DNA of 60,839 nt from Streptomyces sp. NP160 (GTDB lineage Bacteria; Actinomycetota; Actinomycetes; Actinomycetales; Quadrisphaeraceae): NCBI RefSeq assembly GCF_006335115.1, contig NZ_VDMJ01000022.1, positions 1 to 60,839 of the forward strand. Direction: 5' to 3'. Below, piece after piece: positions 3,231 through 46,074 of this stretch. The position numbers were made by a program, and so were the translations under genes. Each line of letters starts with the position of its first letter. Within the stretch, counting starts at the first letter, position 1. The notes beneath the pieces are model-generated. The model was not told the DNA's origin. It saw only the letters and a list, made by a program, of their open reading frames with translations, and did not search any database.

Positions 3231-3318
3231 CGACAGCCGGTGCCCGAACGGCCCGGCCCGGCGCGTCGCCGGGCCGCCTCCCGCAGCCGCTCGGTCGGGG
3301 GAGGCGCCCGCGCTCGCG

Positions 3319-3334
3319 TAGGCTCACCTGCCCG
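3319..3334 (+). promoter_or_regulatory. putative -10 element for a leaderless ychF transcript
   Basis: TAGGCT at 3319-3324 ends 9 nt before the GTG start of ychF, and no Shine-Dalgarno sequence precedes that start. A transcript starting 7-10 nt after the element would begin at or next to the start codon, as in leaderless actinobacterial mRNAs. No clear -35 element is seen. Confidence 0.35.
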
Positions 3335-4419
3335 TGGCGCTCACCATCGGCATCGTCGGCCTGCCCAACGTCGGCAAGTCCACCCTCTTCAACGCCCTCA
3401 CGAAGAACTCGGTGCTGGCGGCCAACTACCCCTTCGCGACGATCGAGCCGAACACCGGCGTGGTCCCGCTGCCCGACCCGCGCCTGGACCGGCTCGCCGA
3501 GGTCTTCAGCAGCGAGCGCACGGTGCCCGCCACCGTGACCTTCGTCGACATCGCCGGCATCGTCCGCGGCGCGTCGGAGGGCGAGGGCCTGGGCAACAAG
3601 TTCCTCGCCAACATCCGCGAGGCCGACGCCATCTGCCAGGTGGTCCGCGCCTTCGCCGACCCCGACGTCGTCCACGTCGACGGCCGCGTGGACCCGAAGG
3701 CCGACATCGAGACCATCGCCACCGAGCTGGTGCTCGCCGACCTGCAGACCCTCGAGCGCGCGGTGCCGCGCCTGGAGAAGGAGGTCAAGGGCAAGAAGGC
3801 CGACCCCGCGGTGCTCGCCGCCGCGGTCGGGGCCCAGGCGGTGCTCGACCAGGGCACCACGCTGTTCGCGGGCGCCGCGGCCGCCGGCGTGGACGTCGAG
3901 CAGCTGCGCACGCTCGGCCTGCTCACCACCAAGCCGTTCCTCTTCGTCTTCAACGTCGACGAGGCCGGCCTGGTCGACGAGGCCCGCCGCTCCGAGCTGG
4001 CCGCCCTCGTGGCGCCAGCCCAGGCGGTGTTCCTGGACGCCCAGCTCGAGGCCGACCTCGCCGAGCTCGACGACGACGAGGCCGCGGAGCTGCTGGCCAG
4101 CGTCGGCCAGGACGAGCCCGGCCTGGACATCCTGGCGCGCGCCGGCTTCGAGACCCTCGGCCTGCAGACCTACCTCACGGCCGGTCCCAAGGAGTCGCGC
4201 GCGTGGACCATCCGTCGCGGCGCGACCGCGCCCGAGGCGGCCGGCGTCATCCACACCGACTTCCAGAAGGGCTTCATCAAGGCCGAGGTCATCGGCTTCG
4301 AGGACCTGGTGGCGGCCGGCTCGGTGGCGGAGGCCCGCAAGAGCGGCAAGGCCCGCATCGAGGGCAAGGAGTACGTCATGGCCGACGGCGACGTGGTGGA
4401 GTTCCGCTTCAACGTCTAG
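3334..4419 (+). CDS. ychF: redox-regulated ATPase YchF (Obg-like)
   Basis: A 361-residue P-loop NTPase of the TRAFAC class. Walker A is GLPNVGKST (residues 9-17), switch/DxxG is DIAGIVRGASEGEGLGNKFL, and the usual NKxD is replaced by NVDE. That replacement is the family hallmark that shifts preference from GTP to ATP. A coiled-coil insertion follows, then a C-terminal TGS domain (about 280-361, with TGPKESRAWTIRRG and VIHTDFQKGFIKAEV). YchF associates with ribosomes and modulates stress responses. Full length with the canonical C-terminus VMADGDVVEFRFNV. It is the last clearly chromosomal gene before the accessory island. Confidence 0.97.
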   Translation: MALTIGIVGLPNVGKSTLFNALTKNSVLAANYPFATIEPNTGVVPLPDPRLDRLAEVFSSERTVPATVTFVDIAGIVRGASEGEGLGNKFLANIREADAICQVVRAFADPDVVHVDGRVDPKADIETIATELVLADLQTLERAVPRLEKEVKGKKADPAVLAAAVGAQAVLDQGTTLFAGAAAAGVDVEQLRTLGLLTTKPFLFVFNVDEAGLVDEARRSELAALVAPAQAVFLDAQLEADLAELDDDEAAELLASVGQDEPGLDILARAGFETLGLQTYLTAGPKESRAWTIRRGATAPEAAGVIHTDFQKGFIKAEVIGFEDLVAAGSVAEARKSGKARIEGKEYVMADGDVVEFRFNV

Positions 4420-4747
4420 GCCGCTTCTCCGACCAGCAGTCTTGGAGTCTTGCAGGCCGCTGACCTGGGCGAATGTCGCTGACTGGCGTTGGGCGGCGTT
4501 GGCTGTCTTCGGCTGTCCTGCGGACCTGGTGCGGACTTCATGCGGACTGGGGAGGTGCTGCGAGCACCTCCCCAGTTGCCCCGTGGTGGGCACTCATGGC
4601 AGGTGCGGCGGTAGCGCTGCGTTGCCTACCGGCGGTGCTGTCATCCCTTCGGTCGCCTCCTTGCCGCATGGCTCATTGGGAGTGTCCTAGCCGGTCTGTA
4701 CGTTGTCTCAAGTACGACACGTGACTACTGCGGACAGGGGGTGCGAC
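4420..4747. other. island-edge intergenic region
   Basis: 328 bp without a supportable gene between ychF and the antitoxin gene. It holds the perfect 14-bp inverted repeat annotated separately, and TGCGGAC/CGGAC-type repeats around 4520-4550. Base composition is visibly less GC-biased than in the flanking chromosome. It is the likely left boundary zone of the accessory island, but no direct repeat shared with the right side was recognised. Confidence 0.4.
4546..4576 (+). terminator. perfect 14-bp inverted repeat after ychF
   Basis: ACTGGGGAGGTGCT (4546-4559) pairs completely with AGCACCTCCCCAGT (4563-4576) across a 3-nt loop GCG. It starts 127 bp past the ychF stop and has no downstream T tract. 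It most simply reads as a strong factor-independent-like or bidirectional terminator. An element-end or recombinase site is an alternative. Confidence 0.55.
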
Positions 4748-5191
4748 ATGAGCAAGGTCGATGACGTGGCGGCCTACATCATCGAGCGCAAGGGCCCCAT
4801 GACTGCCATGAAGCTGCAAAAGCTCGTCTACTACTCGCACGCGTGGCACCTGGTCTGGGAGGAGGCGCCTCTATTCCCGGACACCATCGAAGCCTGGGCC
4901 AACGGGCCGGTCGTTCGGCATCTGTACGACCAGCACCGAGGCAACTTCCAGGTCGCCGACTGGCCTTCCGGTGAGCCCGAACGCCTGGACCACGACGAGC
5001 GCGAGTCGATCGAGGCCGTTCTCGAGTACTACGGCAAGCGCTCGGCGCATGACCTCAGTGAGCTCACCCACAGTGAGGACCCGTGGAAGCGGGCTCGTGC
5101 CGGTCTTGGAGCCGGCGTGCGAAGCAGTGCGCCGATCACGGACGAGTCCATGTTCGAGTACTACGACGGACTCACCCGCTCCGGGGCCTAG
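4748..5191 (+). CDS. Panacea/SocA-domain antitoxin (DUF4065-type)
   Basis: A 147-residue protein matching the SocA/Panacea domain: KVDDVAAYIIERKG, TAMKLQKLVYYSHAWHL and EAWANGPVVRHLYDQHRG near the N-terminus, with a C-terminal EDPWKRAR segment. Members are antitoxins that neutralise very diverse adjacent toxins, some acting as ClpXP adaptors. The ATG at 4748 was chosen because AGGGGG lies 7-8 nt upstream; an in-frame ATG at 4703 would add 15 residues of poor character (MSQVRHVTTADRGCD). The stop overlaps by one base the GTG of the next gene, the tight coupling expected of a toxin-antitoxin pair. Domain call is strong; antitoxin activity is inferred. Confidence 0.85.
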   Translation: MSKVDDVAAYIIERKGPMTAMKLQKLVYYSHAWHLVWEEAPLFPDTIEAWANGPVVRHLYDQHRGNFQVADWPSGEPERLDHDERESIEAVLEYYGKRSAHDLSELTHSEDPWKRARAGLGAGVRSSAPITDESMFEYYDGLTRSGA

Positions 5192-5691
5192 TGGCCAAGA
5201 AGGGCCGGGGTGAGAAGAAGCCTCCCCGCACAGCGCCTCCCGGTGGCTGGCCGACCGGCAAGCAGGCCGCAGCGGCCAGTCCGCCACCATTCGGCCAGAA
5301 GATCCCTTCCTCAGTCGAGCCCGACCGCGAGGAGGTGATGAACCGCAAGTTGGGGTGGCGTCTCGGTCAGGTCGACTTGGATGGACCCTGGGGCTTTCTG
5401 AAAATGGCCCCTACGGAGTTGAGGGCAGTCCTGGACCGGCTCAGCAGCTTCGAGACCATGACGGTGCGCGAGGTTTTCTACACCGGGGAAGAACCCGGAA
5501 AGCACTACAGCGTTGACGACCTCGTAAAGGAGGCACGCGACCGTCTCACCGAGTTGGACCTCGACGATGAGACGCTCATCGCCCGTCTTCGCATCGACGG
5601 CCCGGGACGCGTCTATGGCTTCCTGCGCGAGAGCGACTTCTGGTTCCTCTGGTGGGATCCAAGGCACGAGATCTACCCGACGAGCAGGTGA
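5191..5691 (+). CDS. candidate toxin paired with the Panacea antitoxin
   Basis: 166 residues starting at a GTG that overlaps the antitoxin stop by one base. The first 45 residues are basic and proline-rich (VAKKGRGEKKPPRTAPPGGW) and probably disordered. The folded part (about 50-166) holds MAPTELRAVLDRLSSFETMTVREVF, an acidic helix, and an ending GRVYGFLRESDFWFLWWDPRHEIYP. That pattern of a short strand, aromatic cluster, D and H recurs at the end of several small toxin-like proteins. I do not recognise a named toxin family or prove a catalytic site. The role as the toxin partner is inferred from the one-base overlap and from the known habit of Panacea antitoxins to sit beside their toxin. 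Confidence 0.55.
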   Translation: MAKKGRGEKKPPRTAPPGGWPTGKQAAAASPPPFGQKIPSSVEPDREEVMNRKLGWRLGQVDLDGPWGFLKMAPTELRAVLDRLSSFETMTVREVFYTGEEPGKHYSVDDLVKEARDRLTELDLDDETLIARLRIDGPGRVYGFLRESDFWFLWWDPRHEIYPTSR

Positions 5692-6031
5692 GGTCGGCTG
5701 ATCATGCGGGGACCTCGCAAGAGGTTCGCGGTTTTCCACTCGGCGCAGTGACCGCGCGAGCTTGCGTCATCGCGCCGGCGACGAGGAAGCGGCGTGCCAG
5801 AGCGGCCGGCCTGTGGTTCGTGCTGTGCGCGACGCGATCAACGGCGTCACACACGTAGCCGGCGGGAGCGGCGTTACCGCCGCTGCTTCGTGCACGGCCT
5901 TGCCGAGCAGATCCCAGCAGCGGTTTGCCCTCCGGGGCGATGCGTCTCTATGTAGCGTTTCAGCGACGTAGGTCAGCTGGAGTAGTCGGTGACCGCGATG
6001 AGCCACGTTCGAGAGGCCGGGGGGCGGCACG
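5692..6031. other. intergenic region between the TA pair and the TerB operon
   Basis: 340 bp with no supportable gene on either strand; short open frames here have no recognisable product and no ribosome binding site. It contains the hairpin at 5710-5727 and must hold the promoter of the operon starting at 6032, though no clear -35/-10 pair was found. Confidence 0.4.
5710..5735 (+). terminator. GNRA-capped hairpin with short T run after the TA pair
   Basis: GGACCTC (5710-5716), tetraloop GCAA (5717-5720) and GAGGTTC (5721-5727) form a 7-bp stem including one G-T pair, followed by TTTT at 5732-5735. It begins 18 bp past the candidate toxin stop and is the most terminator-like structure in this part of the window. 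Confidence 0.45.
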
Positions 6032-8359
6032 ATGGGACTGTTCGGCCTCTTCAAGCGGAAGGCGATGGCGCCTCCGCCCCCGCCTCCCCAAGATCATGAC
6101 GGTCAGTCGTTCATCACGCCGAGCCGTGTTCTGTCACGAGCGCCTGAGTCGACGCCCCAACAGCACAGTCCCCGGGTGGTCCAACGACCCCCCAGCCAGA
6201 CGGCGCCGCGACCAACGTCAGCTCCTCCGGCCCGCGCACCGCGCCAGAGCGGACCAAAGAGCTTGTGGATTGCTCCCGGTGCAGAAGTACGCATCGGTCC
6301 TCTACTGCTACCCGGCGGGATGCTCTACGTCGGCCAGCGTCTTCAGGCTGGGAACGGCTACGGCATAGAGCCTGCTCTGATCAACCCGCACCTGGACGTC
6401 GACCACCGCAGACCCGACTGGGCGGGGGAGACCGTCGGCTACTGGCCGTCCTTCTCGGACATCTCCCCGCGTGCACGCGGCGCCTACCTGAGCTGGCTCG
6501 CTGCGGGCAGGGTCGGGCCTGTCCCGATCAGCTGGGTGTTCCTGTTCTTCTACGGGCTGGAACGGCGGGTCATCGTTGATGCGACCAGAGCGGGGACCCC
6601 GGCGCGGGCAGACCTGCCGGCGATCCGCACGGAGGTCGAGCGACTGCTCGGCCTCTACGGCACCAACCACTCGTTCCGCCGGTACGCCACGGAGTTCCTC
6701 TCCGTCATCGACCTCGCCGACGGATTGACCCACGAGGACGCCGTACCCCCGGAGCGGGTCGCGGAGCGGTGGCCCGTTCCCCACACGCTTCGTCTCAAGC
6801 TCGGTGAGCTGGCGAACGCGGGAACCCCCGTTCCGGCTGAGTGGGCACTCGCATGGGTGCATTTCAACATGAACATCCACTTGCGGACCCCTGCCCAGCG
6901 CTGCCCCGAGGAGTTCGAGCAGCTCTTCCTCAGCCGCTACAGCGCGAAGTACGGCCCCGGCATGGTGGTGAAGCCCAACAAGACCCTGGTCAAGCACCAG
7001 TACCACTCCGCCAGCTCAGGACTCGGCTCCGTCGAGCTCTCCGCGGCTGTCCCAGACGTGCTTGAGCTGGCGGCTCCGACCACCAAGCTCGAACGACTGG
7101 TGACCGACTGCACGGACGCGCTCGACGCCTACAGCCGGTTGCTCGGACGGCGACCAGAAGCGCGAGGCACCCTCGCAGCGTCGGCACTCCTGCCGCCCGA
7201 GCTCATCACGGACACCACGGGGGACCTCGCCCGACTGCGAGCTTGGGTGACGGCGCGGACCGACAGCGGGGCTCCAGTGCCCGTCGACGCTCAAGAACTG
7301 CTCGCCTTCTGGCCCGCGGAGATACCAGGTCAGCTGACGAAGGCCGAAGCCGTGGGCCTGATCCAGCTCCTCGGCAGCCAGGGGGTGGGCATCGAGCCTG
7401 ACCTTCGCTTCGGCGGACCCATCCTGGGCCCAGGCAGTGCGGTGCTCTTCACCACCGGCCGTCGGGCGCCGACCACGGCCAGCCCGAGCTACACCGCAGC
7501 CGCCACGATGCTCCACCTCGCGGCCGCGGTGTGCGCGGCCGACGGACGGTCCTCGGGCGCTGAGACGGCTCACCTTCAAGCGCACCTCGAGTCCTCCATG
7601 GACCTCAGCGCCGGTGAACGCGCGCGGCTTCAGGCCCACATGACGTGGTTGCTCAGCGGCCAGATCAAGCTCACCGGACTTTCCAAGCGGCTCGCAACCC
7701 TCGGCGTGACCCAACGCGAGTCACTCGGCGACTTCCTCGCGACCGTTGCCGCAGCCGATCGTGAGGTCACCCCCAGTGAGGTCGACATCCTCACCAAGAT
7801 CTTCAAGCTGCTGGGACTTGACACCGCCTCGGTCTACAGCCGCCTGCACACCTCGACGACAGCCGGACCACCCGCCGCCCAGGGGCCGGTGGTCGTGCGT
7901 GCTGCCTCCAGTCGCAAGACCGGCTACGCCATCCCTGCGCCGCCGCGCGTCGACGAAGTGAAACCGAGCGGCACCCCGGGCCGATCTCAGGTGCGGTTGG
8001 ACTCCGCCGCGATCGAGGCCAAGCTCGCTGAGACCCACGCTGTGTCGATGCTGCTGGGAAGCATCTTCACGGAGGAGCCGGACGACGTCGTCGCGACCCC
8101 AGCCCCGAAGGCCGCAGACGCACCACCCCCCGTCGCCGGGCTCGACACCGCGCACTCGGCACTCCTGCGCGTCCTCGTCACACGTGCACGCTGGAGCCGC
8201 GCGGACCTGGAAGCGGAGTGCGCGAACCTCTCCCTCCTCCCCGACGGAGCACTCGACACGCTGAACGAAGCGGCCTACGACGTGACCGGCGACCCTGTGG
8301 TCGAGGGCGACAACCTGATCGACATCAACACCGACGTCGCTGCGGAGATGCTGACATGA
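6032..8359 (+). CDS. TerB N-terminal/TerB-C domain protein
   Basis: A 775-residue protein. After a proline-rich, low-complexity linker (about 11-75) comes a TerB-N domain (about 80-330: VRIGPLLLPGGMLYVG, PALINPHLDVD, GYWPSFSDISPRARGAYLSWL, FLFFYGLERRVI). Next is a helical TerB/TerB-like region (about 490-620: MLHLAAAVCAADGRSSGAE and LATVAAADREVTPSEVDIL, whose acidic D/E residues are the usual metal-binding positions). A TerB-C domain ends the protein (about 650-775). Proteins of this architecture are not classical tellurite resistance genes. They occur with DNA-processing ATPases and helicases, as here: the next two genes follow with a 4-nt overlap and a 4-nt gap. The GGGGGG before ATG 6032 is a good ribosome binding site. 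A sensor or scaffold role in defence is inferred. Confidence 0.85.
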   Translation: MGLFGLFKRKAMAPPPPPPQDHDGQSFITPSRVLSRAPESTPQQHSPRVVQRPPSQTAPRPTSAPPARAPRQSGPKSLWIAPGAEVRIGPLLLPGGMLYVGQRLQAGNGYGIEPALINPHLDVDHRRPDWAGETVGYWPSFSDISPRARGAYLSWLAAGRVGPVPISWVFLFFYGLERRVIVDATRAGTPARADLPAIRTEVERLLGLYGTNHSFRRYATEFLSVIDLADGLTHEDAVPPERVAERWPVPHTLRLKLGELANAGTPVPAEWALAWVHFNMNIHLRTPAQRCPEEFEQLFLSRYSAKYGPGMVVKPNKTLVKHQYHSASSGLGSVELSAAVPDVLELAAPTTKLERLVTDCTDALDAYSRLLGRRPEARGTLAASALLPPELITDTTGDLARLRAWVTARTDSGAPVPVDAQELLAFWPAEIPGQLTKAEAVGLIQLLGSQGVGIEPDLRFGGPILGPGSAVLFTTGRRAPTTASPSYTAAATMLHLAAAVCAADGRSSGAETAHLQAHLESSMDLSAGERARLQAHMTWLLSGQIKLTGLSKRLATLGVTQRESLGDFLATVAAADREVTPSEVDILTKIFKLLGLDTASVYSRLHTSTTAGPPAAQGPVVVRAASSRKTGYAIPAPPRVDEVKPSGTPGRSQVRLDSAAIEAKLAETHAVSMLLGSIFTEEPDDVVATPAPKAADAPPPVAGLDTAHSALLRVLVTRARWSRADLEAECANLSLLPDGALDTLNEAAYDVTGDPVVEGDNLIDINTDVAAEMLT

Positions 8360-9768
8360 CTGCTACCACCATCCGGCCTCGCGAACGCGACGCGATCCTT
8401 CTTGCCCTGCGCGCCGGAGTCGTTCCGCGACTCGGCCAGCAGCACATCCAGGTGGGGCGCGCCTCCGAGGTCAAGGCGCTCGTCGACGACGTCGACCGGA
8501 TCGCCGACGGTGGCTCGGCGATCCGCTTCGCCATCGGGGAGTACGGATCCGGGAAGACCTTCTTCCTGCACCTGGTGCGGTCGATCGCGATGGAGCGCAA
8601 GCTCGTTACGGTCCAGGCGGACCTCTCTCCTGACCGACGCCTGCACGCCACCGGCGGTCAGGCGCGCTCGCTGTTCACCGAGCTGATGCGCAACATCTCC
8701 ACGCGCGCGAAGCCAGACGGCGGAGCCATGGGCAGCATCGTGGAGCGCTTCGTCAGCCAAGCGATGACAGCGGCCCGCGACAGCGGATCCTCTACGGAGT
8801 CCGTCATCCGCTCGAGGCTCAGCGAGCTCTCGGAGATGGTCGGCGGCTACGACTTCGCCGAGGTCATCGCGGCGTACTGGCGAGGCCATGACAACGGGGA
8901 TGAGCAGCTCAAGAGCGACGCCGTGCGCTGGTTGCGGGGGGAGTACTCCACCCGCACCGACGCACGGGCCGCACTGGGCGTCCGCACGATCATCGACGAC
9001 GCCAACTTCTACGACCAGCTCAAGCTCATGTCCCGCTTCGTCGTGATGGCAGGCTTCTCCGGCCTCCTGGTGTGCCTCGACGAGCTCGTCAACCTCTACA
9101 AGCTCGCGAACTCCCAGGCGCGCAACGCGAACTACGAGCAGATCCTCCGCATCTTGAACGACAGCTTGCAGGGCAGCGCAGGTCACCTCGGGTTCGTGCT
9201 CGGCGGGACCCCGGACTTCCTCCTCGACACCCGTCGAGGGCTGTACAGCTACGCCGCCCTGCAGTCGCGGTTAGCCGAGAACAGCTACGCCACGAACGGT
9301 CTGGTGGACTACTCCGGCCCCGTCCTGCGCCTGGCGAACCTCAGCCAGGAGGACTTCTACCTCCTCCTCACAAGACTGCGGAACGTCTTCGCCAGTGGTG
9401 ACCCCTCAGCCCACCTCGTGCCGGATGAGGCCATCACCGCCTTCATGGAGCACTGTTCGTCTCGCGTGGGAGACGCCTACTTCCGCACCCCGCGCACGAC
9501 CATCAAGGAGTTCGTCAACCTCCTCGCGGTGCTCGAGCAGAACCCGGGCGCTGACTGGACGGACCTCCTCGGCGCCGTCCGCCTGACACCGGAGACGAAC
9601 CCGGATCTCGAGCCCCTCCCCACGGCAGCGCAGGAGGAGTCCCCGATCGCCTCACCCCTGAGCGCTGGCGCAACGTCTCCCGCGGAGCCCGCCAGCGTCC
9701 GCCACGGCGATGTTCCCCACGCCCCCCAGGCGCGGGACGACGACGAACTCACCTCGTTCAGGCTGTGA
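8356..9768 (+). CDS. BrxD-like P-loop ATPase (BREX system ATP-binding domain)
   Basis: A 470-residue AAA/ORC-type ATPase. Walker A is GEYGSGKT (61-68) and Walker B is LLVCLDE (about 235-241). The preceding IRPRERDAILLALRAGVVPRLG and HIQVGRASEVKAL are typical of the DUF2791/BrxD family, and LGFVLGGTPDFLLDTRRGLYSY fits its sensor region. BrxD is a DNA-handling ATPase found in type 2 BREX (Pgl) loci, where it pairs with the helicase BrxHI, the gene immediately downstream here. The ATG overlaps the TerB protein stop (ATGA), so the genes are translationally coupled. The last 45 residues are acidic and unstructured. No other BREX core gene (PglX, PglZ, BrxC, BrxL) is present. Confidence 0.85.
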   Translation: MTATTIRPRERDAILLALRAGVVPRLGQQHIQVGRASEVKALVDDVDRIADGGSAIRFAIGEYGSGKTFFLHLVRSIAMERKLVTVQADLSPDRRLHATGGQARSLFTELMRNISTRAKPDGGAMGSIVERFVSQAMTAARDSGSSTESVIRSRLSELSEMVGGYDFAEVIAAYWRGHDNGDEQLKSDAVRWLRGEYSTRTDARAALGVRTIIDDANFYDQLKLMSRFVVMAGFSGLLVCLDELVNLYKLANSQARNANYEQILRILNDSLQGSAGHLGFVLGGTPDFLLDTRRGLYSYAALQSRLAENSYATNGLVDYSGPVLRLANLSQEDFYLLLTRLRNVFASGDPSAHLVPDEAITAFMEHCSSRVGDAYFRTPRTTIKEFVNLLAVLEQNPGADWTDLLGAVRLTPETNPDLEPLPTAAQEESPIASPLSAGATSPAEPASVRHGDVPHAPQARDDDELTSFRL

Positions 9769-9772
9769 ACGC

Positions 9773-12079
9773 ATGACTGCCGGCGAGGAGGACGGACGGA
9801 CGTCTACCGGCTTCGCGCGGTTGCACCCCCGCATCCAGCACTGGATTTGGCAGCAGCGCTGGGACGACCTGCGCGACGCCCAAGAACGTGCGGTCGCTCC
9901 CATCCTCGCCGGTGACTGCGATCTGATCATCTCGGCCGCCACGGCCTCCGGGAAGACGGAGGCTGCCTTCCTGCCGATCTGCACAGCGCTGCTCACGGCT
10001 CAGGAGTCTCCGCCTTCCACGGCTGATGATGCCGCCGGTGCCGACGGGGTTCAGGTGCTGTACCTGGCTCCGCTCAAGGCACTGATCAACGACCAGTTCG
10101 GGCGCCTGGAAGCGCTGTGCGAGCACCTCGAGCTGCCGGTCCACCGGTGGCACGGCGACGTGGCGGGCTCACGCAAGGCCAAGGTGATCAAAGACCCTTC
10201 CGGGCTGCTCCTGATTACCCCGGAGTCCTTGGAAGCGCTGCTCGTCATCCACGGTCCCAAGGTCGGCCGCATCTTCGGCGGCCTGCGATACGTGGTGATC
10301 GACGAGATGCACTCGTTCCTGGGAACGGAGCGCGGTGCTCAGCTGCAGTCCTTGCTCCACCGCATCGAGCTGGTCCTACGACGGCGCATTCCGCGCATCG
10401 GCCTGTCCGCAACCCTGGGAGATGCGAGCGGCGCCCGTGAGTTCCTGCGGCCAGCTGACGGGGAGCGAGTGCTGGAGGTCGTGGCCGAGGACGACGGGCA
10501 GGAGCTCCAGTTTCAGCTCCGAGGCTATGAAGCAGAACCTCCCCTGCTGAGCGAGTCGGAGGCGATGGCGCTCGAGAGCGCAGGCAAGGTCGTAGAGCCT
10601 GAGGACGTGACCACCGGGGACCGGTTGGCGATCGCCGAGCACCTCTTCACCACGCTGCGGGGCTCGGACAACCTGATCTTCGCGAACTCTCGTCGAGAGG
10701 TGGAGACGTACGCCGACCTCCTGGCGAGGCGCTCTGCCCAAGCGCGCGTGCCCAACGAGTTCGTACCGCATCACGGGAGCCTGTCGAAGGACCTCCGCGA
10801 GGACGCGGAGTCGCGGTTGAAGGACAGGTCTGTGCCCGTCAACGCCGTCTGCACGTCCACCTTGGAGATGGGCATCGACATCGGCAGCGTCAACTCCATC
10901 GCGCAGCTCGGGGCGCCGCACACCGTCGCCAGCCTCCGCCAACGACTCGGACGCTCAGGGCGCCGCGGAGGCGCAGCCACCCTGCGCCTCTACGTGACCG
11001 AAGACAGCATCAGCCCGCAGACGCCTCCTCCGGATGCGCTGCGCGTCGAGCTGGTGCAGAGCATCGCCATGATCGAGCTGCTCCTGGGGAAGTGGAACGA
11101 GTCACCCGGCGCGGGAGGCCTGCACCTGTCCACGCTGGTCCAGCAGCTCCTGTCGTTGATCGCACAGCACGGGGGCGTCACCGCAGTGCATGGCCACCGT
11201 GCGCTCTGCAGCCAGGGACCGTTCGCTGGTGTCGACGCGAAGATGTTCGTGGGTCTTCTCAGGGGCTTGGGGGCCGCTGACCTCATCACCCAGAGCACCG
11301 ATGGGCTGCTCCTCCTGGGACTGGCGGGCGAGCGGATCGTCAACCACTACAGCTTCTACGCGGCCTTTGCGACCGCCCAGGAGTACCGCCTCATCGCCAA
11401 CGGGCGCAGCTTGGGAACGTTGCCGCTCGACTACCCGTTGATGTCGGGGTCGCTGCTCATCTTCGGAGGGCGCCGGTGGAAGGTCATCACCGTCGACACG
11501 CGCAACAAGGTCGTCGAACTCATCCGGTCGACCGGAGGACGCCCTCCCACGTTCAGCGGCTCCGGTGGAGAGGTCGCCGATGAGGTCAGGCGTCGAATGC
11601 GGTCTGTCCTGGCCGGCGCTGACGTGCCGACCTACTTGAACGTGGGGGCCGTGGATCTGCTGGCCGAAGGTCGGCTGAGTTTCCAGCGACTCGGGCTCGC
11701 GGCCGACCCGGTGATTGCGTGGGGAGCCGACACCTTGCTCTTTCCCTGGCGGGGGGACCGGATCATGTCGACGCTCGCTCTTGCCCTGACTGGAGCTGGC
11801 GCCGAAGTAGCGCAGGACGGCGTCTGCTTGACCATGACGAAGACGACTCGGGGGCAGGCGATCGACCGGATGACCGAGCTTCTGGATGCCGGCCCGCCGG
11901 ACCCTCTGGCCCTTGCGGCCATGGCTGGCACCAAGGTGGCCGAGAAGTACGACGACTACCTCACCGAGGAGTTGCAGAACGCGGGGTTCGCTGCCCGTTC
12001 CCTCGACGTTCCCGGCGCGTGGGCTGCACTCGAGACACTCCTCAAGGAAATCCCGGTCGAGCAGTTGAGAGATCACTGA
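9773..12079 (+). CDS. BrxHI/Lhr-like DEAD/DEAH-box helicase
   Basis: 768 residues, superfamily 2. Motif I is TASGKT (57-62), motif Ia APLKAL, motif II DEMH (177-180) and motif III SAT. Motifs V-VI are CTSTLEMGIDIGSVNS and LRQRLGRSGRRGG. The second half lacks the full Lhr-core extension and ends in a region resembling the BrxHI C-terminal part (SFYAAFATAQEYRLI, GTLPLDYPL, LIFGGRRWKVITVD). Lhr-type enzymes translocate 3' to 5' on ssDNA and unwind duplexes. It starts 4 nt after the ATPase stop; an upstream in-frame ATG at 9710 inside that gene is rejected because the added residues are out-of-frame coding of the ATPase. Probably works in complex with the two preceding products. Confidence 0.9.
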   Translation: MTAGEEDGRTSTGFARLHPRIQHWIWQQRWDDLRDAQERAVAPILAGDCDLIISAATASGKTEAAFLPICTALLTAQESPPSTADDAAGADGVQVLYLAPLKALINDQFGRLEALCEHLELPVHRWHGDVAGSRKAKVIKDPSGLLLITPESLEALLVIHGPKVGRIFGGLRYVVIDEMHSFLGTERGAQLQSLLHRIELVLRRRIPRIGLSATLGDASGAREFLRPADGERVLEVVAEDDGQELQFQLRGYEAEPPLLSESEAMALESAGKVVEPEDVTTGDRLAIAEHLFTTLRGSDNLIFANSRREVETYADLLARRSAQARVPNEFVPHHGSLSKDLREDAESRLKDRSVPVNAVCTSTLEMGIDIGSVNSIAQLGAPHTVASLRQRLGRSGRRGGAATLRLYVTEDSISPQTPPPDALRVELVQSIAMIELLLGKWNESPGAGGLHLSTLVQQLLSLIAQHGGVTAVHGHRALCSQGPFAGVDAKMFVGLLRGLGAADLITQSTDGLLLLGLAGERIVNHYSFYAAFATAQEYRLIANGRSLGTLPLDYPLMSGSLLIFGGRRWKVITVDTRNKVVELIRSTGGRPPTFSGSGGEVADEVRRRMRSVLAGADVPTYLNVGAVDLLAEGRLSFQRLGLAADPVIAWGADTLLFPWRGDRIMSTLALALTGAGAEVAQDGVCLTMTKTTRGQAIDRMTELLDAGPPDPLALAAMAGTKVAEKYDDYLTEELQNAGFAARSLDVPGAWAALETLLKEIPVEQLRDH

Positions 12080-12211
12080 TCTCTGGGGGAGGTGACGGCT
12101 CAGCCACGCCACTGGCGCGGGACAGGGGCGGAGAATTCACACAAGGTGCTTCTGATGAGTCGTTGACGCGAACTCCCTTCGGCCAGCCCGACCTAGTGGC
12201 AGCCTGAAGCG

Positions 12212-12886
12212 ATGGGGGAACAGCCCGAAGACGGGCGCTTGCCAGTAGTCGCAGTCATCGACTCCGAGGGCGAGCGGATGGCCGTGTGGTGGGTGGCCCT
12301 GGACGGGGCGACCGGCTCCGACTCGAGCCGCCTCGCGGGCGCCTGGGTGGTTCCAGCAGACCCCGACAGGCTGGTGTCGCTGGTCGCCCAGCGCCACCTG
12401 CTGATCTGCCCCGGCGCTTTGGCGCTGGCGCGCACGTCGGGACTGGAGACGCAGCCGTGGTTCGACGCCAACGGCTCCAGGACTGCCGTCCTGGACGAGC
12501 GGCGCTCGCTGGAGCAGGTGCACGCGGAGTTCCTGGCAGGTATCTCCGCCGCGCGCGCCAGGACCCTCACGGAGCCGCAGTGGCCGGTGGTCATCAACCC
12601 GCTGGAGCACATGGCGCGGGGGCGAGTTCCGGGTAGCTCGGGGCAACCCGGTGGCGCCAAGACCGCGCAGACCATCGCCGCGCCCGCCGAGAAGGAGCCT
12701 GAGGTGGGCATCGAGAGTGATCCGCTGGCGCAGTCGACCCTGAGGGTGGCGCAGTGGGTCAAACGGCTCGGTGTCTGTTGGGAGGAGCTCGAGGCAGTGC
12801 GGATCTCCCGCAAGCACCTGCGCGCCGCCCGGGACCACGACCCGCGCCCCTTCCCCATCCGTCATGGTGGGCCGGAGGCCGTGTGA
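12212..12886 (+). CDS. hypothetical protein, co-transcribed with exonuclease
   Basis: 224 residues, no family recognised. The N-terminal half looks like a compact alpha/beta domain (LPVVAVIDSEGERMAVWWVAL, GAWVVPADPDRLVSLVAQRHLLICPGALAL), and a helical middle (RRSLEQVHAEFLAGISAARAR) leads to VVINPLEHMARG. Then comes a flexible glycine/alanine stretch and a C-terminal helix. No signal peptide or membrane segment. Its TGA overlaps by one base the ATG of the exonuclease, so the two are probably translated together and may act together. The 132-bp gap from the helicase shows no terminator, so read-through from the TerB operon is possible. Only a weak purine stretch precedes the ATG. Confidence 0.7.
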   Translation: MGEQPEDGRLPVVAVIDSEGERMAVWWVALDGATGSDSSRLAGAWVVPADPDRLVSLVAQRHLLICPGALALARTSGLETQPWFDANGSRTAVLDERRSLEQVHAEFLAGISAARARTLTEPQWPVVINPLEHMARGRVPGSSGQPGGAKTAQTIAAPAEKEPEVGIESDPLAQSTLRVAQWVKRLGVCWEELEAVRISRKHLRAARDHDPRPFPIRHGGPEAV

Positions 12887-14025
12887 TGCACCCTCCGCGA
12901 CCGCGCACCCATGATGACGAGCTTCTTTCTCAGGCGTTCACGAAGGCGCTCAAGGCGGTGTCCACTGCGCTTCCGGCCGGAGACCTCGATGCAACGTCCG
13001 GGGCAAAGTCCGTCGTGGGCTCCGAGGCCGGCCCCGTCGGCCTCAGTGGGGCCGGCCAGGGGCTGGACTTCGTCGCTCTGGACGTCGAGACCGCCAACTA
13101 CCGCCGCGGGTCGATCTGCGCGATCGGCCTGGTCATCGTGCGCGGGGGGCAGATCACCGAGCGCCACGCCTGGCTGGTGAGGCCCGCGCCCGCGTTGGAC
13201 TGGTTCGACTCCTACAACACCTCCCTGCACGGCATCGGACCCGCTGACGTCGTCGCCGCCCCTAGCTTCGCTGCCAGCCTGCAGCGCCTGGTCACCGTGG
13301 TCGGTGAACTCCCAGTGGTGGCGCACAACGCAGCGTTCGACATCGGGGCGTTGCGTGACGCCTGTGACGCAGCAGACCTGGCGTGGCCCTCGCTGACGTA
13401 CGCCTGCTCCCTCGTCATGGCGCGCAGGGCTCTACCCCTCATCAGCTATCGACTCCCCATGGTCGCCGGTGCCCTCGGGGTGGACCTGCTCAGCCATCAC
13501 GACGCTGCCGCCGATGCCGAAGCCGCTGCACGGATCGTGCTGGCTATCGGTGCGCAGCGAAGAGTGACCTCGCTGGATGCCCTGGCGACCCAGCTCCTCG
13601 TCTTGCTGGGCCAGGTCGAACCCGATGCATGGCGGGGGTGTCACCGCACCTACACCTCAGGCTCTGGCGGCAAGCCGTTGCCGCCTCAAGCCAACCCTGA
13701 AGCCGATCCCCACCACTACCTCTTCGGTCAGGTGATGGTCTTCACCGGGGCGCTGTCCCTGCGTCGTGAAGACGCCTGGGCACAGGTCGCAGCGCTGGGC
13801 GCCATCCCCGAGAGCGACGTCACCAAGCGGACGAACCTGTTGGTCATCGGAGGTGGCTTCACCGGCAGCGACCCAGCCGATTTCGCGACCGGCAAGGCCG
13901 CCCGGGCTGCCGCCAAGCGCGCGAAGGGGCAAGACATCGAGGTGCTGTCCGAGACCGATCTGCTGTCGCTGCTGAACGAGACCACCACCGGCGGACGCAG
14001 ACTCCGTCGTCCAGCACCTCGCTGA
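12886..14025 (+). CDS. DEDDh 3'-5' exonuclease with C-terminal BRCT domain
   Basis: 379 residues. The exonuclease domain (about 60-225) shows all four acidic positions and the histidine: D66 and E68 in LDVETA, D152 in HNAAFDIGAL, and H205/D210 in HHDAAAD, as in the DnaQ/RNase T superfamily. A linker precedes a BRCT domain (about 280-370: GQVMVFTGALSLRREDAWAQVAALGA, TKRTNLLVIGG, KGQDIEVLSETDLLSLL) like that of DNA ligase and of DnaQ-BRCT proteins. Such enzymes trim single-stranded 3' ends, and BRCT domains bind DNA ends or partner proteins. The ATG overlaps the upstream stop by one base. Placement after the TerB-ATPase-helicase operon suggests the nuclease arm of the same pathway, which is an inference. 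Confidence 0.88.
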   Translation: MHPPRPRTHDDELLSQAFTKALKAVSTALPAGDLDATSGAKSVVGSEAGPVGLSGAGQGLDFVALDVETANYRRGSICAIGLVIVRGGQITERHAWLVRPAPALDWFDSYNTSLHGIGPADVVAAPSFAASLQRLVTVVGELPVVAHNAAFDIGALRDACDAADLAWPSLTYACSLVMARRALPLISYRLPMVAGALGVDLLSHHDAAADAEAAARIVLAIGAQRRVTSLDALATQLLVLLGQVEPDAWRGCHRTYTSGSGGKPLPPQANPEADPHHYLFGQVMVFTGALSLRREDAWAQVAALGAIPESDVTKRTNLLVIGGGFTGSDPADFATGKAARAAAKRAKGQDIEVLSETDLLSLLNETTTGGRRLRRPAPR

Positions 14026-14145
14026 CGCTCCGCACCCACAGGCGACCCTCACCCGGTCGGCACCCGTGTCCTGCTCAGTCGTGTGTCGACATCAGCGGTC
14101 AGCAGCTACAACTTGCCGGCTTCGCCAGATGCAGGCCTCCCGACC

Positions 14146-14718
14146 TCATCGCAGGGTCGAGACGTGGACGTGGTCGAAGTGGCCGCCGGTCGGCGTGCTG
14201 ACGTCATAGACCCCGCCCCCTTCATAGGTCCGCCAGCCCTCGCGCGCCCGGTTAGCGGACCAGATGCGCCCGTCCCAGATGACGTAGGCGACGTCGAGGG
14301 CCGCAGCGTTGTCCGTGAGCCAGTCGGCGATCTCCCAGCCGTACGCGCGATCCGCCGCGTCGGGGAACTGACCTGCCGTTCCGATGGTGAAGTCGCACGC
14401 CTTGCCTCGGGGATGGTCGCTCGTGGGGTTCCAGGCGTGGGCGTCCCAGCACGACGACGGAAGTTGTCCGAAGTGCAGCAGCGTCTGCTGGTAGAGCCAC
14501 GCCATCGCAGGGGTCAGGCAACTGTCCCCTCTGGTGGGGTCGGGTTCGGTGCAGCCCGTCGAGGAACCGCTGGAGGCCGTGACCGGAGGAACGCCCGCGA
14601 CCGTGCCCGTGGCATCACCGCCTACAGGCAGGGTCGGCGCGAAGCCGTAGAAGCCCCCTCCGAGGACCAGCACGACCACGAAGAGCGTGCCCACGCCCGC
14701 CACCGCGCTTCCCCTCAT
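14146..14718 (-). CDS. membrane-anchored ARB-07466/M15-like C-terminal domain protein
   Basis: 190 residues. An N-terminal membrane anchor or signal (about 6-27, VAGVGTLFVVVLVLGGGFYGF) is followed by a Ser/Thr/Gly linker and an extracytoplasmic domain. That domain has LTPAMAWLYQQTLLHFG, SDHPRGKACDFTIG and HFDHVHVS. The H-P-R-G-x-A-x-D and H-x-D-H-V-H patterns resemble zinc-ligand positions of M15/D-Ala-D-Ala-type peptidases and the ARB-07466-like C-terminal domain common in actinobacterial conjugation loci, where they could loosen peptidoglycan. The ATG at 14718 has AGAGGG 6 nt upstream; longer in-frame starts lack one. It converges on the exonuclease gene (120 bp between stops). Confidence 0.75.
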   Translation of the reverse strand: MRGSAVAGVGTLFVVVLVLGGGFYGFAPTLPVGGDATGTVAGVPPVTASSGSSTGCTEPDPTRGDSCLTPAMAWLYQQTLLHFGQLPSSCWDAHAWNPTSDHPRGKACDFTIGTAGQFPDAADRAYGWEIADWLTDNAAALDVAYVIWDGRIWSANRAREGWRTYEGGGVYDVSTPTGGHFDHVHVSTLR

Positions 14719-14948
14719 AAGGACCCTCTGACCTCGAGGGGTCGGCGAGAGTGGCCTGAGGGTCCAGAGCGTCGGCACGGCGCCCGTACGAGGCTGGGGA
14801 GTCGTGTCATGGCCTTCCGCGGTCGCCGGGGACCGGCGGGCGGAGGCACACCGGCCCCGCGAGCCAAGACGGCGGCGGTTGCATGATCGCTCTTCGCGCG
14901 GCGTCAGGCGCCCACCCACAGCAAGGCAAGCTCGCCCGCCGGAGCAGC

Positions 14949-15896
14949 TCAGCTCACGACGACGGCCTGCGCCTCGCCGATCTGCACAGCCGCGTCGGAC
15001 GTCAGGTCCATCTCCTCCTGCCCGGTCTGCCCTCCGCCGGTCCAGGTGATGGCCCAGTGGCTGGTGGCGGTCACCGTGTAGGAGTTGCCGGGCTGGCCGA
15101 CGGACGACCGCGAGTAGACGTGGCCGCAGTCAGGGGAGCGACTCGCCCCTGCGGCGTCTGTGTACGGAGTGCCTCGACCGCAGATGACCGTCGTCCCGTC
15201 ACCGAGGTCCCAGGTCACGTGCTCGACCTTCGCGGTGGCCGTGACGGTGACCCCACCTGCGGCGGCAGTCCTGGTCGTCGGCCCGAACGTTGTCGCCGTC
15301 GGTTCAGCGACCCACATCCACGCCGGCAGGCCGACCAGGCCGACGCTGTCCGCGCCGGCCTCGGGGACCATCCCGATGGTGATCGCCTGCAGCCCCATGG
15401 TGGCGATGGCCTCTTGCGCCAGCTGTGCCGGGTCCGGGCCAGCGGGTGGCGCAGCCGCCCAGAACGAGTAGGCGGTCTGGAACTGGTTGCCGATGTCGGG
15501 GGTGCAGCTGTAGACCGCTCCGTCGGTGTGGCCCTCGAAGAGGATGCTGCCGGGGAGCGGGTTCTCCGCGGAGGGCTGCACGTAGCAGTCGCGTGAGTTG
15601 GACCAGGAGCCCATGGCGCCGGAGCACGGGACGACTTTGGCGGACCAGTCGCTGTAACAGGAGGCTGCCGAGGACGACCTCCCGGACGTGCCGCCTGACG
15701 CGCTGGCGTTCTGCGTCCGGCCCGGTGCGCTGGCTCCCAGTCTGCAGTAGCCCGTGCGCACGTCGAGCTGCTGGCAGGTCGTCGTCACGCCTGCAGCCAC
15801 AGGGGGAGCCGCTGCCGCCACGTGGGCGCTGGGGACGCCGATGACCACCAGGGCGACTGCGAGCACGAAGGCCGCTCGCATCGTCATCCAGCGCAT
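14949..15896 (-). CDS. secreted PKD-like domain protein
   Basis: 315 residues with an N-terminal signal peptide (MRWMTMRAAFVLAVALVVIG, AHVAAAA cleavage zone). A cysteine-containing region follows (CQQLDVRTGYCRLG, AASCYSDWSAKVVPC, YSCTPDIGN). The C-terminal half has a PKD-like pattern (VTATAKVEHVTWDLGDG, CGHVYSRSSVGQPGNSYTVT). Proteins like this recur beside Tad/T4SS genes in actinobacteria; the exact role is unknown, plausibly a cell-surface part of the apparatus. ATG 15896 has AGGGCGAG upstream; an ATG at 15887 forming ATGA with the lipoprotein stop is the alternative. It overlaps the lipoprotein gene by 13 nt, so is co-transcribed. Confidence 0.7.
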   Translation of the reverse strand: MRWMTMRAAFVLAVALVVIGVPSAHVAAAAPPVAAGVTTTCQQLDVRTGYCRLGASAPGRTQNASASGGTSGRSSSAASCYSDWSAKVVPCSGAMGSWSNSRDCYVQPSAENPLPGSILFEGHTDGAVYSCTPDIGNQFQTAYSFWAAAPPAGPDPAQLAQEAIATMGLQAITIGMVPEAGADSVGLVGLPAWMWVAEPTATTFGPTTRTAAAGGVTVTATAKVEHVTWDLGDGTTVICGRGTPYTDAAGASRSPDCGHVYSRSSVGQPGNSYTVTATSHWAITWTGGGQTGQEEMDLTSDAAVQIGEAQAVVVS

Positions 15897-16477
15897 GGCT
15901 CGCCCTGCGCCGAGGTCCGGTCGACCGTCCAGCGAGCATCTCCTGCGGCCACCACGGTGAGGTGGACGACCGACGAGGTGGTCCGGTCCGGCGCGAGTGC
16001 AGAAGCACCTGCGTTGTCGACGACGTCCAGCGCGGAGACGTCCACGCACGCGTCGATCGTGACCGTTGGCGGAGCCTGCAGATCCGCGCCTGTCGCGGTG
16101 AGATCGGCCAGCACGACGCTGCCCGTCTGGCGCAGGCCCCTGACGCGCTGCTCCTGGACCTGCCGACGGAGGAGGTCCAGCTCCTCGCCGCTGGCCACGG
16201 AAGCGGCCTCGTCCACGGACGTCTGCGGATCGCTGAGCAGCCGGTCGGTGACCGCGTAGTACGAACGCACCGCCTCTGTGGCGGCTGCGACAGCTGCATC
16301 CGTCTCGGCGACCGCCGTGGAAGACGGTGACGGAGACGCCGTGGTGGCTGCCTCAGTGCTAGCGGCGGGAGTTGCGCCGGGGCTCGTCATGCACCCCGTC
16401 AACCCGATGGAGAGTCCGCTCAGGCAGACGACGACGGATGCGCGCCGTGCGCGCGCCAGCAGGTCACGACGAGACAT
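15884..16477 (-). CDS. predicted lipoprotein
   Basis: 197 residues with a lipoprotein signal: basic start MSRRDLLARARRA, a hydrophobic stretch and the lipobox LTGC at about residues 26-29. A Thr/Ser/Pro/Ala linker is followed by a small alpha+beta domain (AVAAATEAVRSYYAVTDRLL at its start, then VSALDVVDNAG and VVHLTVVAAGDARWTVDRT). This layout is common in lipoproteins of transfer or secretion loci, some with NTF2-like folds. It starts 14 nt inside the end of the LysM-BTAD gene. No enzymatic motif seen. Confidence 0.75.
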   Translation of the reverse strand: MSRRDLLARARRASVVVCLSGLSIGLTGCMTSPGATPAASTEAATTASPSPSSTAVAETDAAVAAATEAVRSYYAVTDRLLSDPQTSVDEAASVASGEELDLLRRQVQEQRVRGLRQTGSVVLADLTATGADLQAPPTVTIDACVDVSALDVVDNAGASALAPDRTTSSVVHLTVVAAGDARWTVDRTSAQGEPCAG

Positions 16478-19400
16478 GACGAGAGCCTTCCGAGAGATCG
16501 TCGCGGGTGCGCGCAGTTCGAGGAAGCAGCCGGGAGATGAGCTCGTGGGTCTCCTCTTCCAGGTCGTCCCCGAGCTCCTCGGCCAGGCCCGTGAACCGCT
16601 GCGCGAGGGCCTCTAGGGCCCCTCGGTTGCCCGCGAGGTGTTCCGCACGCATGGCGGCTCGCCACAGCTGTTCGGAACCGGGTTCGGCTTGCAGCCCGAC
16701 GGCTGCGGCCCGCCGAGCCTGCGCCCCGTCGCCATCGCCGAGTGCCCGTTCTGCCAGCTCGACGGCCACGTCGACGATGAGCTCGATCATGGTCTGCTTC
16801 GGAACATCGGCCCACGCGTAGCGGAACGGGTGGACGCCGGCGAAGGGCTGACCGCGGACGAGGTCGAGCGCATCGAGGAGCTGGCTGGTCGCGACCGACG
16901 ACGGATCGTCGCCCACGAGTTCGCGGAAGTCGTCCCAATCGCTCCGCACGGCCGGCGCCAGCTGGTACCCCTCGGACTTCGCGAGTGGGAGGTAGCGAGC
17001 TCCGTCTGCATCGCTGCCCAGCCATGCTCGCGTCCGCGAGATGAGCTGGTTGCGACGAGTGCGAGGCACGCGCTCACCTGGCCACAGGAGTCCGTCGACG
17101 AGGTGAGGCTGGCTGTTCGGGTACAGGGCGAGCAGCGCGACGAGCTCGGTCATGGTCGACAGGTTGTTGCTCGGGGCGGTCCCGGGCCGTGGGCCGTGCA
17201 CCTCCACCGGACCAAGGACCAGGACGCGGGGCGGCGCAGGCGCTGTGGTGCGGTCGCCGCTGTACGACCGGGCTCGCCGGGTGCGGCCGTCCTCAGCCGC
17301 CGCGTCCCCCGGCGGCGCAACGGGGTCCGTTCTCGCAGCGTCGTCGCCGGATGTCTGAGGCACCGGCGCAGCACAGTCCTCCGAGCAGGCGACCAGGGCC
17401 GGGGCGACCGCGCCCGCCTCGACCTCCTCCGCAGACAACGCGGAAGGCGGCTCTTCGAGGTTCCGAGGCGAGCCGGAGGTGGGAACGGTGGCCGTGTGGA
17501 CCGCCGTTGCGAGCAGCGCCCGTGCCTCAGCCCCCAGCTGCTGCGGGCTGAGCCGCAGGCTCAACGGCTGCAGGAGTGCAAGGTCTGCGTACTCGTCCAC
17601 GGCCAGCGTCCATGCCGTCGCTGTGATGGCGGTCGTGCTGATGACAGCGAGGGGAACGGACTGAGCACCGGTCATCAGGCGTGCGAGGCGAGCCCTCTGG
17701 TCTTCGCGGAGCGCGGAGCCGATCACGAGGACTCGGGGCCTCAGCGCGTCACCGCAGTCCCCTGAGGCTCGCCCCGCGGCGGGACGAGCCTGATGGGTGA
17801 GCGCCACGGCCTCCTGCAGGTCGGCGGCCCACCGCTCGACCTGGTCCAGCACCCCATCGACGTCATCGGTCTGCTCGACGTGAGGCACCTCGAGAGTGGT
17901 GACGAGCCCGTCGAAGGAGCCGGTGACGACGACGTCGGCCTCCGCGCCCCACGGTGACGTGGCCAGGTCGATGACGAGGGCGCTCAGCACCGCCTCGACC
18001 TCGTCTGCTGAGCCTCCCCGAGCCGACGCGATCCTCGTCTCCACACACAGCTCACCGACGGCCTCGAGGTCGACCAGGACGAGCCCGCCGTCGAGGTCCC
18101 GGCCCAGCACGACCAGGGTCGGGAAGGGGGTCGGAGCGTCGGGGCCAGGAGCCGGCTCGTCGAGCGCGGCGTGGCGGTCGAACTGCCACAGGGAGTCGTC
18201 CCCACCAGCGGCCGTGAAGGGCAGGAGGGGGAGCGCCGGCGTGCCCAGCTGCAGCTCGATGCGTTCACCGGTGAGCCGGATCGACCTCACATCGGGCAGG
18301 GCAGTGCCATCGCGGTGGCACCGAGCGCTGAGCGCCCGCAGCGCCGCGTCGAGCTGCTCCACGGTGTACGGGTCCTGCGCAGCGTGCACCTGCCGCTGCA
18401 CCGTCTGCGTCGCTGGTGGGGCTGTCGGAAGCCGCTGACCCTGACGGCGGTGGCGCTGCTGGCGGCGGCGCCGGCGGCGGATGAGCCCGGTGATCCCAGC
18501 AGCCGTCAGGCCGCTCAGAGCGACTCCTGCGCCGAGCACCCACAGGTTGATGGCGACAGCGTCGTCGACCGCATCATCACCGGAGTCGCCGGCCGCGCCA
18601 CCCCTCTCGGTGGAGACCGCCCTCGAGGACGGTGACGTGGCCCGGTTCGGCGCGGAAGCGCGCGGAGCTGCAGGCTCGACCGCTCCGACGTCAGGTGCCC
18701 GTGTCCCACCACGGGCACCTGACCCCGACGCCCCTGGCGTCTCGGTGCTCTCCTCGGCGTCCGCATTCGAGTCGAGAGGTCTCTGCGTGGGCACCGTCGA
18801 GCCCGAGGGGACCATGACGATCCAGCCGGGATAGATCTGGTCTGCGTCCTGCAGGTGGCGTCCGTCGGGCTGGGTGACGTCGCGGGTCGCGTCCACGAGC
18901 TCGGGGTAGAGCGCCCCGTCACCGAGGTGGTGCGCAGCGATGCCCCACAGCGTGTCGCCGCCGTGCACCGCGACCTGAACGGTCAGCGGAGGGGCCTGGG
19001 GCGCCTGCCCGGGTGCCAGCGACGTCGCAGGGGTCGGCGGCGAGGTGGCAGCAGCTGTCATGGCCGGCGGGGCGGCCACAGCTGCTGGCGCCACGAAGAG
19101 CACCGCGACCGAGGCGACCAGACCGCCAGCGATGCGCTGCTGCAGGCTCAGGAGGGGCAGGGGAGGCAGGCGCCAGCCTCGGACCGCAGCCAGCACTTCG
19201 AGGACGACGGCGCCTGCGAAGGAGAGCCAGGCCACGCTGGCGACGAGGGCGAGCGCTCGGAGGAAGAGGGTGCCGTCGTCGGGCGTCGTGAAGGCCGCGA
19301 CGAGGTCTGCGGTGTCGGGGAAGCTCGTCGGCACCAGCAGGGGAGCCATCTGCCCGAGCAGGAGCGGCGGACCGATGAGCAGCGTGACGAGCGCCCCCGC

Positions 19401-46006: not shown

Positions 46007-46025
46007 CGACTCCTCAGCTCAAGAC

Positions 46026-46039
46026 TTGGACCGGTCCAA
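46026..46039. promoter_or_regulatory. LacI-type operator palindrome
   Basis: TTGGACCGGTCCAA is a perfect 14-bp palindrome with the central CG usual for LacI-family sites, 20 bp upstream of the first dehydrogenase start and 35 bp past the end of the LacI-type gene at 46075-47211, its likely reader. Confidence 0.7.
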
Positions 46040-46074
46040 ACATTGCTGATCCTGGCGGACCAGCAGTAGTGGCG

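Follow-up and report, generated by a model that had tools for sequence, protein, structure and literature searches.

The window, a 60,839-nucleotide stretch of Streptomyces sp. NP160 (contig NZ_VDMJ01000022.1), carries five consecutive genes: sngA, sngB and sngC, followed by a gene for a protein that we call U and a gene, EXO, for a DEDDh 3′–5′ exonuclease with a C-terminal BRCT domain (Table 1). Sequence securely places the first three in Shango, an anti-phage system already known. Our preferred reading of the whole, held tentatively and at just under even chances, is Shango by homology together with a portable two-gene nuclease module, U plus the DEDDh-BRCT exonuclease, that works with Shango; in this strain it probably, not provably, does so. 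Because SngC is fused to a DEDDh domain in one lineage and repeatedly lies next to one in another, Shango appears to benefit from a 3′–5′ exonuclease; because the pair is also found near Gabija, Lamassu and restriction–modification (R-M) genes, it would not be a subunit of Shango. Both sets of observations agree with a portable nuclease module.

Shango genes in the window

Gene boundaries and junctions were read from the open reading frames of the window, and family calls were made with PADLOC, Pfam and NCBIfam models. The open reading frames and junctions confirm the five genes, their order and their spacing as described in an earlier annotation of the letters and translations (the sequence-only reading). 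The product of sngA has the Pfam domains TerB_N (E = 3e-56), TerB (1e-9) and TerB_C (4e-24), and the gene overlaps sngB by 4 nucleotides (ATGA). SngB matches Pfam BrxC_BrxD (4e-156) with the Walker A motif GEYGSGKT, and a gap of 4 nucleotides separates its gene from sngC, whose product matches Pfam DEAD (3e-30) and Helicase_C (4e-16), shows the motifs AATASGKT, DEMH and GRSGR, and in the window carries no nuclease fusion. The U gene follows after a gap of 132 bases, and the ATG of EXO, at 12886, shares one base with the stop codon of U (TGATG).

Table 1. The five genes and their positions in the window.
Gene	Positions	Strand	Product	Length (amino acids)	Family match (E value)
sngA	6032..8359	+	TerB_N-TerB-TerB_C protein	775	PADLOC SngA 1.3e-92
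sngB	8356..9768	+	BrxC/BrxD-type P-loop ATPase	470	PADLOC SngB 6e-185
sngC	9773..12079	+	DEAD/H-box superfamily 2 (SF2) helicase	768	PADLOC SngC 1.9e-273
U	12212..12886	+	Recurrent neighbour of DEDDh exonucleases	224	
EXO	12886..14025	+	DEDDh 3′–5′ exonuclease with C-terminal BRCT	379	Pfam RNase_T 5e-14

The sequence-only reading had treated the TerB protein, ATPase and helicase as an unnamed set; its domains stand, and PADLOC assigns the three genes to the already-described Shango, a match that also bears out the call of a defence system. Shango has reportedly been credited to Millman et al. 2022 as well. Searches of the PDB with SngA and with SngB gave no match, and SngC matched YprA (6znp, 1.4e-17) and, better, 5v9x (7.6e-24) and 7lhl (3e-23), both of which we take to be Lhr helicases.

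SngB and SngC also match the BREX models BrxD (1.2e-45) and BrxHI (7.5e-122), as they would in a BREX remnant that had kept BrxD and BrxHI and lost BrxC, PglX, PglZ and BrxL. However, the Shango models score far better (6e-185 and 1.9e-273), the NCBIfam BrxD equivalog reaches 150.8 bits against a cut-off of 350, PglZ has no match at E ≤ 0.001 in the genome (98% complete), and the three-gene set is kept as such in 80 of 80 loci elsewhere. We therefore reject a remnant, giving it next to no probability, and agree with the earlier statement that this is not BREX.

Those 80 loci are the best 80 of 364 GTDB SngB candidates, picked by SngB similarity alone (best-segment identity 62–83%, from Actinomycetota to Pseudomonadota). 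All 80 have SngA, SngB and SngC in this order on one strand, partially where contigs end or genes are split, so that the three-gene order singled out earlier is conserved far beyond chance. Near relatives rarely have Shango: among the 13 family genomes, 2 have a SngC-family match (E ≤ 1e-100), the second of them distant (3.3e-115), and matches to the window's SngC protein at E ≤ 1e-120 are found in 7 of the 394 class genomes and 4 of the 376 order genomes, the own genome included in each count. One genome of the class sample, G480, has a SngB equal to that of locus L022 and was not counted as independent. Across the phylum sample, a SngC family search gave 29 matches in 28 of 396 genomes, of which just two are close, that of the window itself (SngB 100%) and that of G085 (69%). 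Sixteen matches (L086 and L088–L102) form a divergent SngC group, with SngB at 33–43% where it is in reach; these are 16 small genomes (1.8–2.5 Mb) of families f41 and f20, and no EXO match lies within their short loci. The remaining 10 genomes (E 1e-148 to 1e-103) presumably hold BrxHI-like helicases and were not counted as Shango.

DEDDh domains fused to or beside SngC

Each SngC match was extended to its stop codon, and long tails appeared in Actinomycetota. These tails went into a DEDDh profile together with EXO and an EXO relative at locus L032, and the profile revealed an in-frame SngC–DEDDh fusion in 14 of the 80 loci (L006, L009, L012, L015, L017, L018, L019, L021, L024, L027, L032, L036, L043 and L048). 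Thirteen of the fusions keep all catalytic motifs (D-x-E, HN..[FY]D and the final H...D), and that of L012 has Glu for the middle Asp. The 26 assessable loci named as Actinomycetota divide into 14 with the fusion, one with a neighbouring DEDDh (L008), one with a decayed DEDDh (L042) and 10 without; four further such loci are cut by contig ends and are not assessable. None of the 43 assessable named loci of other phyla has the fusion, and among the four loci without a phylum name one has a decayed DEDDh (L014). Beyond the 80 loci, fusions occur in G085, in G456 and on the conjugative Arthrobacter plasmid pLDW-10, whose SngC (WP_074703541.1, 970 amino acids) is annotated only as a DEAD/DEAH box helicase. 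Two of the seven class-sample Shango genomes are fused (G085 and G456), two have an adjacent U–DEDDh pair (the window and G416), and the other three (G480, G533 and G593) show no DEDDh in the stretch fetched. The earlier proposal that a nuclease is relevant to the system is thus backed by SngC itself.

As a control for position, DEDDh was scored within 1.5 kb after the SngC match, where it occurs in 16 of the 80 loci (108,959 bases; two of the 16 decayed), and elsewhere, where 957,669 bases hold 2 hits; the binomial p of 1.8e-14 overstates the certainty, because the profile came from the fused domains and EXO and because the loci are related. Mapped on a quick SngB tree, fusion takes 7 changes to explain, and the presence of any DEDDh takes 11. 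This tree has 89 rows, eight of which (L005, L010, L011, L023, L028, L038, L050 and L169) are unlabelled because their contigs end too soon, L169 (G874) having no DEDDh in the 2.8 kb after SngC; a divergent Shango, L170 (G769), with a DEDDh 5.7 kb from its SngC match, was left out. A quick DEDDh tree, read with a long-branch warning, separates the fused domains from the EXO group, so that two DEDDh lineages appear to have been attached. At L032 (Mycetocola), the fused SngC–DEDDh is followed in another frame by the separate EXO relative (45%), with its ATG four bases after the stop.

Two tails of other make-up were seen. In L006 (Blastococcus, 13710–15149), SngC and its DEDDh domain are followed by a stretch resembling TerB (Pfam E 0.44) and an end resembling BRCT (E 0.018), nearly the layout of the window's EXO placed on the helicase itself; both tail hits are below cut-off and, since a PDB search with the C-terminal part found no match, the TerB-like and BRCT-like parts rest on these sub-threshold hits. 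The SngC of L080 (Sideroxydans, 13524–14528) has a tail of 334 residues that no Pfam model matches and that by eye resembles a nuclease of the PD-(D/E)XK type; the SngC of its sister L073 has no tail.

The U–EXO pair and its neighbours

EXO has the motifs DVET, HNAAFD and HHDAAADA, and the catalytic residues D65, E67, D151, H204 and D209 (numbered from 12889; numbering from the ATG adds one) are invariant in five sequences. Its NCBIfam match to PRK06195 (1.6e-54) is below cut-off, and its best Foldseek match is the exonuclease part of Staphylococcus aureus DinG (1.7e-9). For the BRCT domain, a five-sequence profile matches LigA and RFC1 chains in the PDB (E 9e-6 to 3e-4), and the structural model has a beta-alpha region at residues 282–362 that agrees with BRCT; the Pfam BRCT model was not reached for EXO and gave 0.056, below cut-off, for the L032 relative. 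Three weaker relatives lie in the own genome. We rejected a chromosomal housekeeping exonuclease because, among 12 other genomes of the family that were searched, just one has a 77% relative of EXO.

U scores E 0.0056 and 16.8 bits against Pfam DUF6218, short of the gathering score of 26.8, and 10 aligned homologues share R40, G43, W45, R197, R212 and P215. A low-confidence model built from six sequences (mean predicted local distance difference test score (pLDDT) 66; core about 81–90 apart from a loop) has a core in the order strand-strand-strand-helix-strand-helix, which is RNase H-like. Foldseek returned no match at E ≤ 0.001; the weak matches, headed by a gp17 nuclease domain and including hexokinases, RuvX, a poxvirus resolvase and ribosomal proteins further down, mix RNase H-like, actin-like and ribosomal folds, and the predicted fold is a hint. 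As no conserved acidic catalytic pattern is seen in U by eye, our guess is that it is a non-catalytic partner.

The partnership of U with DEDDh genes recurs. In the class sample a profile confirmed U in 4 of 394 genomes, the window's included, with a DEDDh gene adjacent in all four; weak U hits in G424, G556 and G581 (E 1.3e-4 to 9.3e-4) were dropped as chance, since the U profile misses them in the genomes, and their loci (about 3.2 kb each) show no U and no DEDDh. Among 72,556 plasmids, EXO (E ≤ 1e-40) found four records, each with a U profile match adjoining EXO, and U found three, two among those four and the third being pRZP5, whose EXO gene adjoins U in the opposite orientation and whose U match is spread over two frames. 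With L008 included there are 11 U loci, and all 11 have an adjacent DEDDh gene. G404, pDK313-98 and pRho-G13 were found through EXO and so show only that EXO has U, and L008 was found through SngB; the six found through U itself (G325, G416, G731, pRZP5, pdjl-6-4 and pLRE138) all have the DEDDh gene.

Shango stands beside three of these 11 loci, each time in a different arrangement: the pair lies downstream of it in the window, divergent upstream in L008 and directly upstream in G416 (PADLOC SngA 3.2e-78, SngB 1.3e-173, SngC 7.8e-265). In L008 a PIF1-type helicase (7.8e-27) fused to a DEDDh domain (3104–5743, minus strand) is divergent from Shango, and U comes next; by eye, this protein also has a TerB-like and a BRCT-like stretch. 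Setting the window aside, one of the three class-sample genomes with U has Shango, vs 6 of 393 genomes overall (Fisher p 0.045), a weak association.

Other defence genes surround the pair elsewhere, as called by PADLOC within the stretches fetched. G404, of the same genus as the window, has no SngC match, yet U lies beside a 77% identical EXO in the same order, about 1.6 kb from the Gabija genes GajA (4.6e-174) and GajB (4.8e-117), with an integrase-like gene (by eye) further on. G325 (L144) has type I R-M methylase and specificity genes, G731 (L146) a type I-like methylase and a PD-T4-6-type kinase, pdjl-6-4 (L172) an Old-like gene and a helicase that matches both PDC-M23B (7e-60) and HamB (4e-55), pLRE138 (L173) LmuA and LmuB, and pRZP5 (L174) Old; for pDK313-98, a TIR-domain gene and a toxin–antitoxin pair are given by the record annotation only, and the record of pRho-G13 carries no annotation. 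At L144 (5677–11073) the R-M genes are closely followed by a DEDDh gene, U and a second DEDDh-like gene, possibly an R-M operon to which a nuclease has been added; in the DEDDh tree, the DEDDh gene that precedes U clusters, on a long branch, with the fused type. Because G404 has the pair near Gabija and lacks Shango, U–EXO is a separate module and not an obligate Shango subunit. For the same reason, and with the pair near yet other defence systems, we reject the single five-gene complex of the sequence-only reading as it was put; the pair becomes a separate candidate defence module.

For this strain we infer a physical link between EXO and SngC, a role for U and the following biochemistry. SngA and SngB would recognise and load on invading or abnormal DNA, SngC would translocate on the DNA and open it, and EXO, acting in trans, would digest the 3′ strand laid bare in this way, while U and the BRCT domain would tether the nuclease to the machine it serves. 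Many other Actinomycetota have a similar pairing built into a single protein, the SngC–DEDDh fusion.

Several facts weigh against a module that works with Shango. The idea that the exonuclease serves the helicase gains from the fusions and from the U–DEDDh genes beside Shango in L008 and G416, but the L008 DEDDh domain has, by eye, lost its catalytic residues, and the U frame of G416 is broken after about 130 residues. Only 3 of the 11 U loci adjoin Shango, one of them the window itself, and L032, with its relative of EXO, has no U. Since the pair occurs near Gabija without Shango in G404, and without Shango in the stretch covered at seven other loci, it may act alone. Shango in turn does not need a DEDDh domain, because none lies in the stretch covered at 10 of the 26 assessable named Actinomycetota loci or at any of the 43 from other phyla, and the Pseudomonas aeruginosa PA14 operon, expressed in PAO1, protects against several phages from a three-gene clone (PMC10250203).

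Such facts would be expected if Shango and U–EXO were two unrelated island neighbours, Shango acting alone and U–EXO forming an independent two-gene defence (or anti-plasmid) system in which EXO degrades DNA ends under the control of U, a possibility that we take seriously while rating it somewhat short of even. The G404 pair beside GajA and GajB without a SngC match, the variety of neighbours (type I R-M, a PD-T4-6-type kinase, a HamB-like helicase, LmuA/LmuB and Old) and the 132-base gap between sngC and U in the window all suit it, but it leaves unexplained why SngC is fused to DEDDh in 14 of the 26 assessable Actinomycetota loci, why an EXO relative directly follows sngC in L032, and why three U loci lie at Shango in three arrangements. 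A repair or self-protection role for EXO and the fused domains, limiting host DNA damage during Shango activity by resection of the MrfAB or DinG kind, seems improbable. It can draw on MrfB, a DEDDh exonuclease that partners a helicase in the repair of mitomycin C damage (PMC11194089), and on the fold of EXO, which comes closest to the exonuclease part of S. aureus DinG, a protein whose deletion sensitises to crosslinking agents (PMC12345164); yet a location among defence genes, in a variable stretch and on plasmids, would be unusual for repair. The preferred reading, a portable nuclease module working with Shango, could also be widened into a general plug-in effector, in which U docks or licenses one DEDDh-BRCT exonuclease shared by Shango, Gabija, Lamassu, type I R-M and Hachiman-like machines, and actinobacterial Shango independently fused another DEDDh lineage to its helicase. 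We regard this wider form as unlikely; if true, Shango would serve as a sensor-motor and depend on a nuclease provided either by the system itself or by the host.

Genomic setting and known systems

As far as the end of ychF (4415–4419), four genomes of the same genus run collinear with the window; beyond it they diverge, and a variable stretch that includes conjugation genes comes next. Similarity between the window and these relatives returns at about 42.7 kb, mostly at 79–88%, on contigs other than that of ychF. With the left flank (4419, ychF) and the right flank (42724–60839) on different contigs in the four relatives (for example C5/C20 in G404 and C1/C5 in G406), a rearrangement, a large insertion or a contig mis-join would account for the pattern. 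The conjugative island of the sequence-only reading finds partial support in a TraG/TraD coupling protein, a T2SSE ATPase and a primase at 23–36 kb, where 6 of 10 scanned window proteins are without a Pfam match at E ≤ 0.001. Between ychF and Shango, at 4703–5691, a SocA/Panacea-type antitoxin (PF13274, 7e-20) is overlapped by a 202-codon open reading frame, possibly a toxin–antitoxin pair, and the minus strand at 14146–19544 encodes, to judge by eye, proteins that are peptidase-like or secreted and a large one of LysM/BTAD-like type, next to tad-like and conjugation genes.

A literature search, with most subscription journals, including that of the 2022 Shango paper, outside its reach, returned no publication on a Shango nuclease, on a U-type partner or on a U–DEDDh pair. 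Among systems with similar parts, MrfAB of Bacillus subtilis, whose helicase is of the YprA family, is alike in pairing a helicase gene with a DEDDh 3′–5′ exonuclease gene, and unlike in its repair role and in that the accessible text names no TerB protein or BrxD-type ATPase, whereas the window's EXO has a BRCT domain and U as a partner (PMC11194089). YprA-family helicases, including those of DISARM, Druantia and ARMADA, resemble SngC in having nucleases fused at the C terminus or encoded downstream, but in the accessible text these are the MrfB exonuclease, PLD, Vsr and EEP types (PMC12458937, in which the terms Shango and TerB do not appear), and in a 2024 helicase tree SngC falls in a clade with BrxHI, DruE and DpdJ (PMC12278908). 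A 3′–5′ exonuclease domain is also fused to HerA/FtsK in counter-invader systems (PMC10853773), which, like MrfAB and the YprA-family helicases, offers a precedent for the proposed nuclease module. S. aureus DinG, the best fold match to EXO, likewise joins a helicase and a 3′–5′ exonuclease in one protein, but its exonuclease is N-terminal and its helicase belongs to the XPD/DinG family. Cas2-DEDDh (8fy9), which presumably acts in CRISPR adaptation, shares the attachment of a DEDDh nuclease to a defence protein and is otherwise an unrelated system. Closest of all, the published Shango has the same three proteins as the window, with the same order and domains (a TerB protein, an ATPase and a DEAD helicase). 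Where its descriptions, in the parts accessible, name three genes, no nuclease and no mechanism, the window adds a U–DEDDh-BRCT pair and SngC in many actinobacteria carries a fused DEDDh domain, which together suggest unwinding followed by degradation of the 3′ strand.

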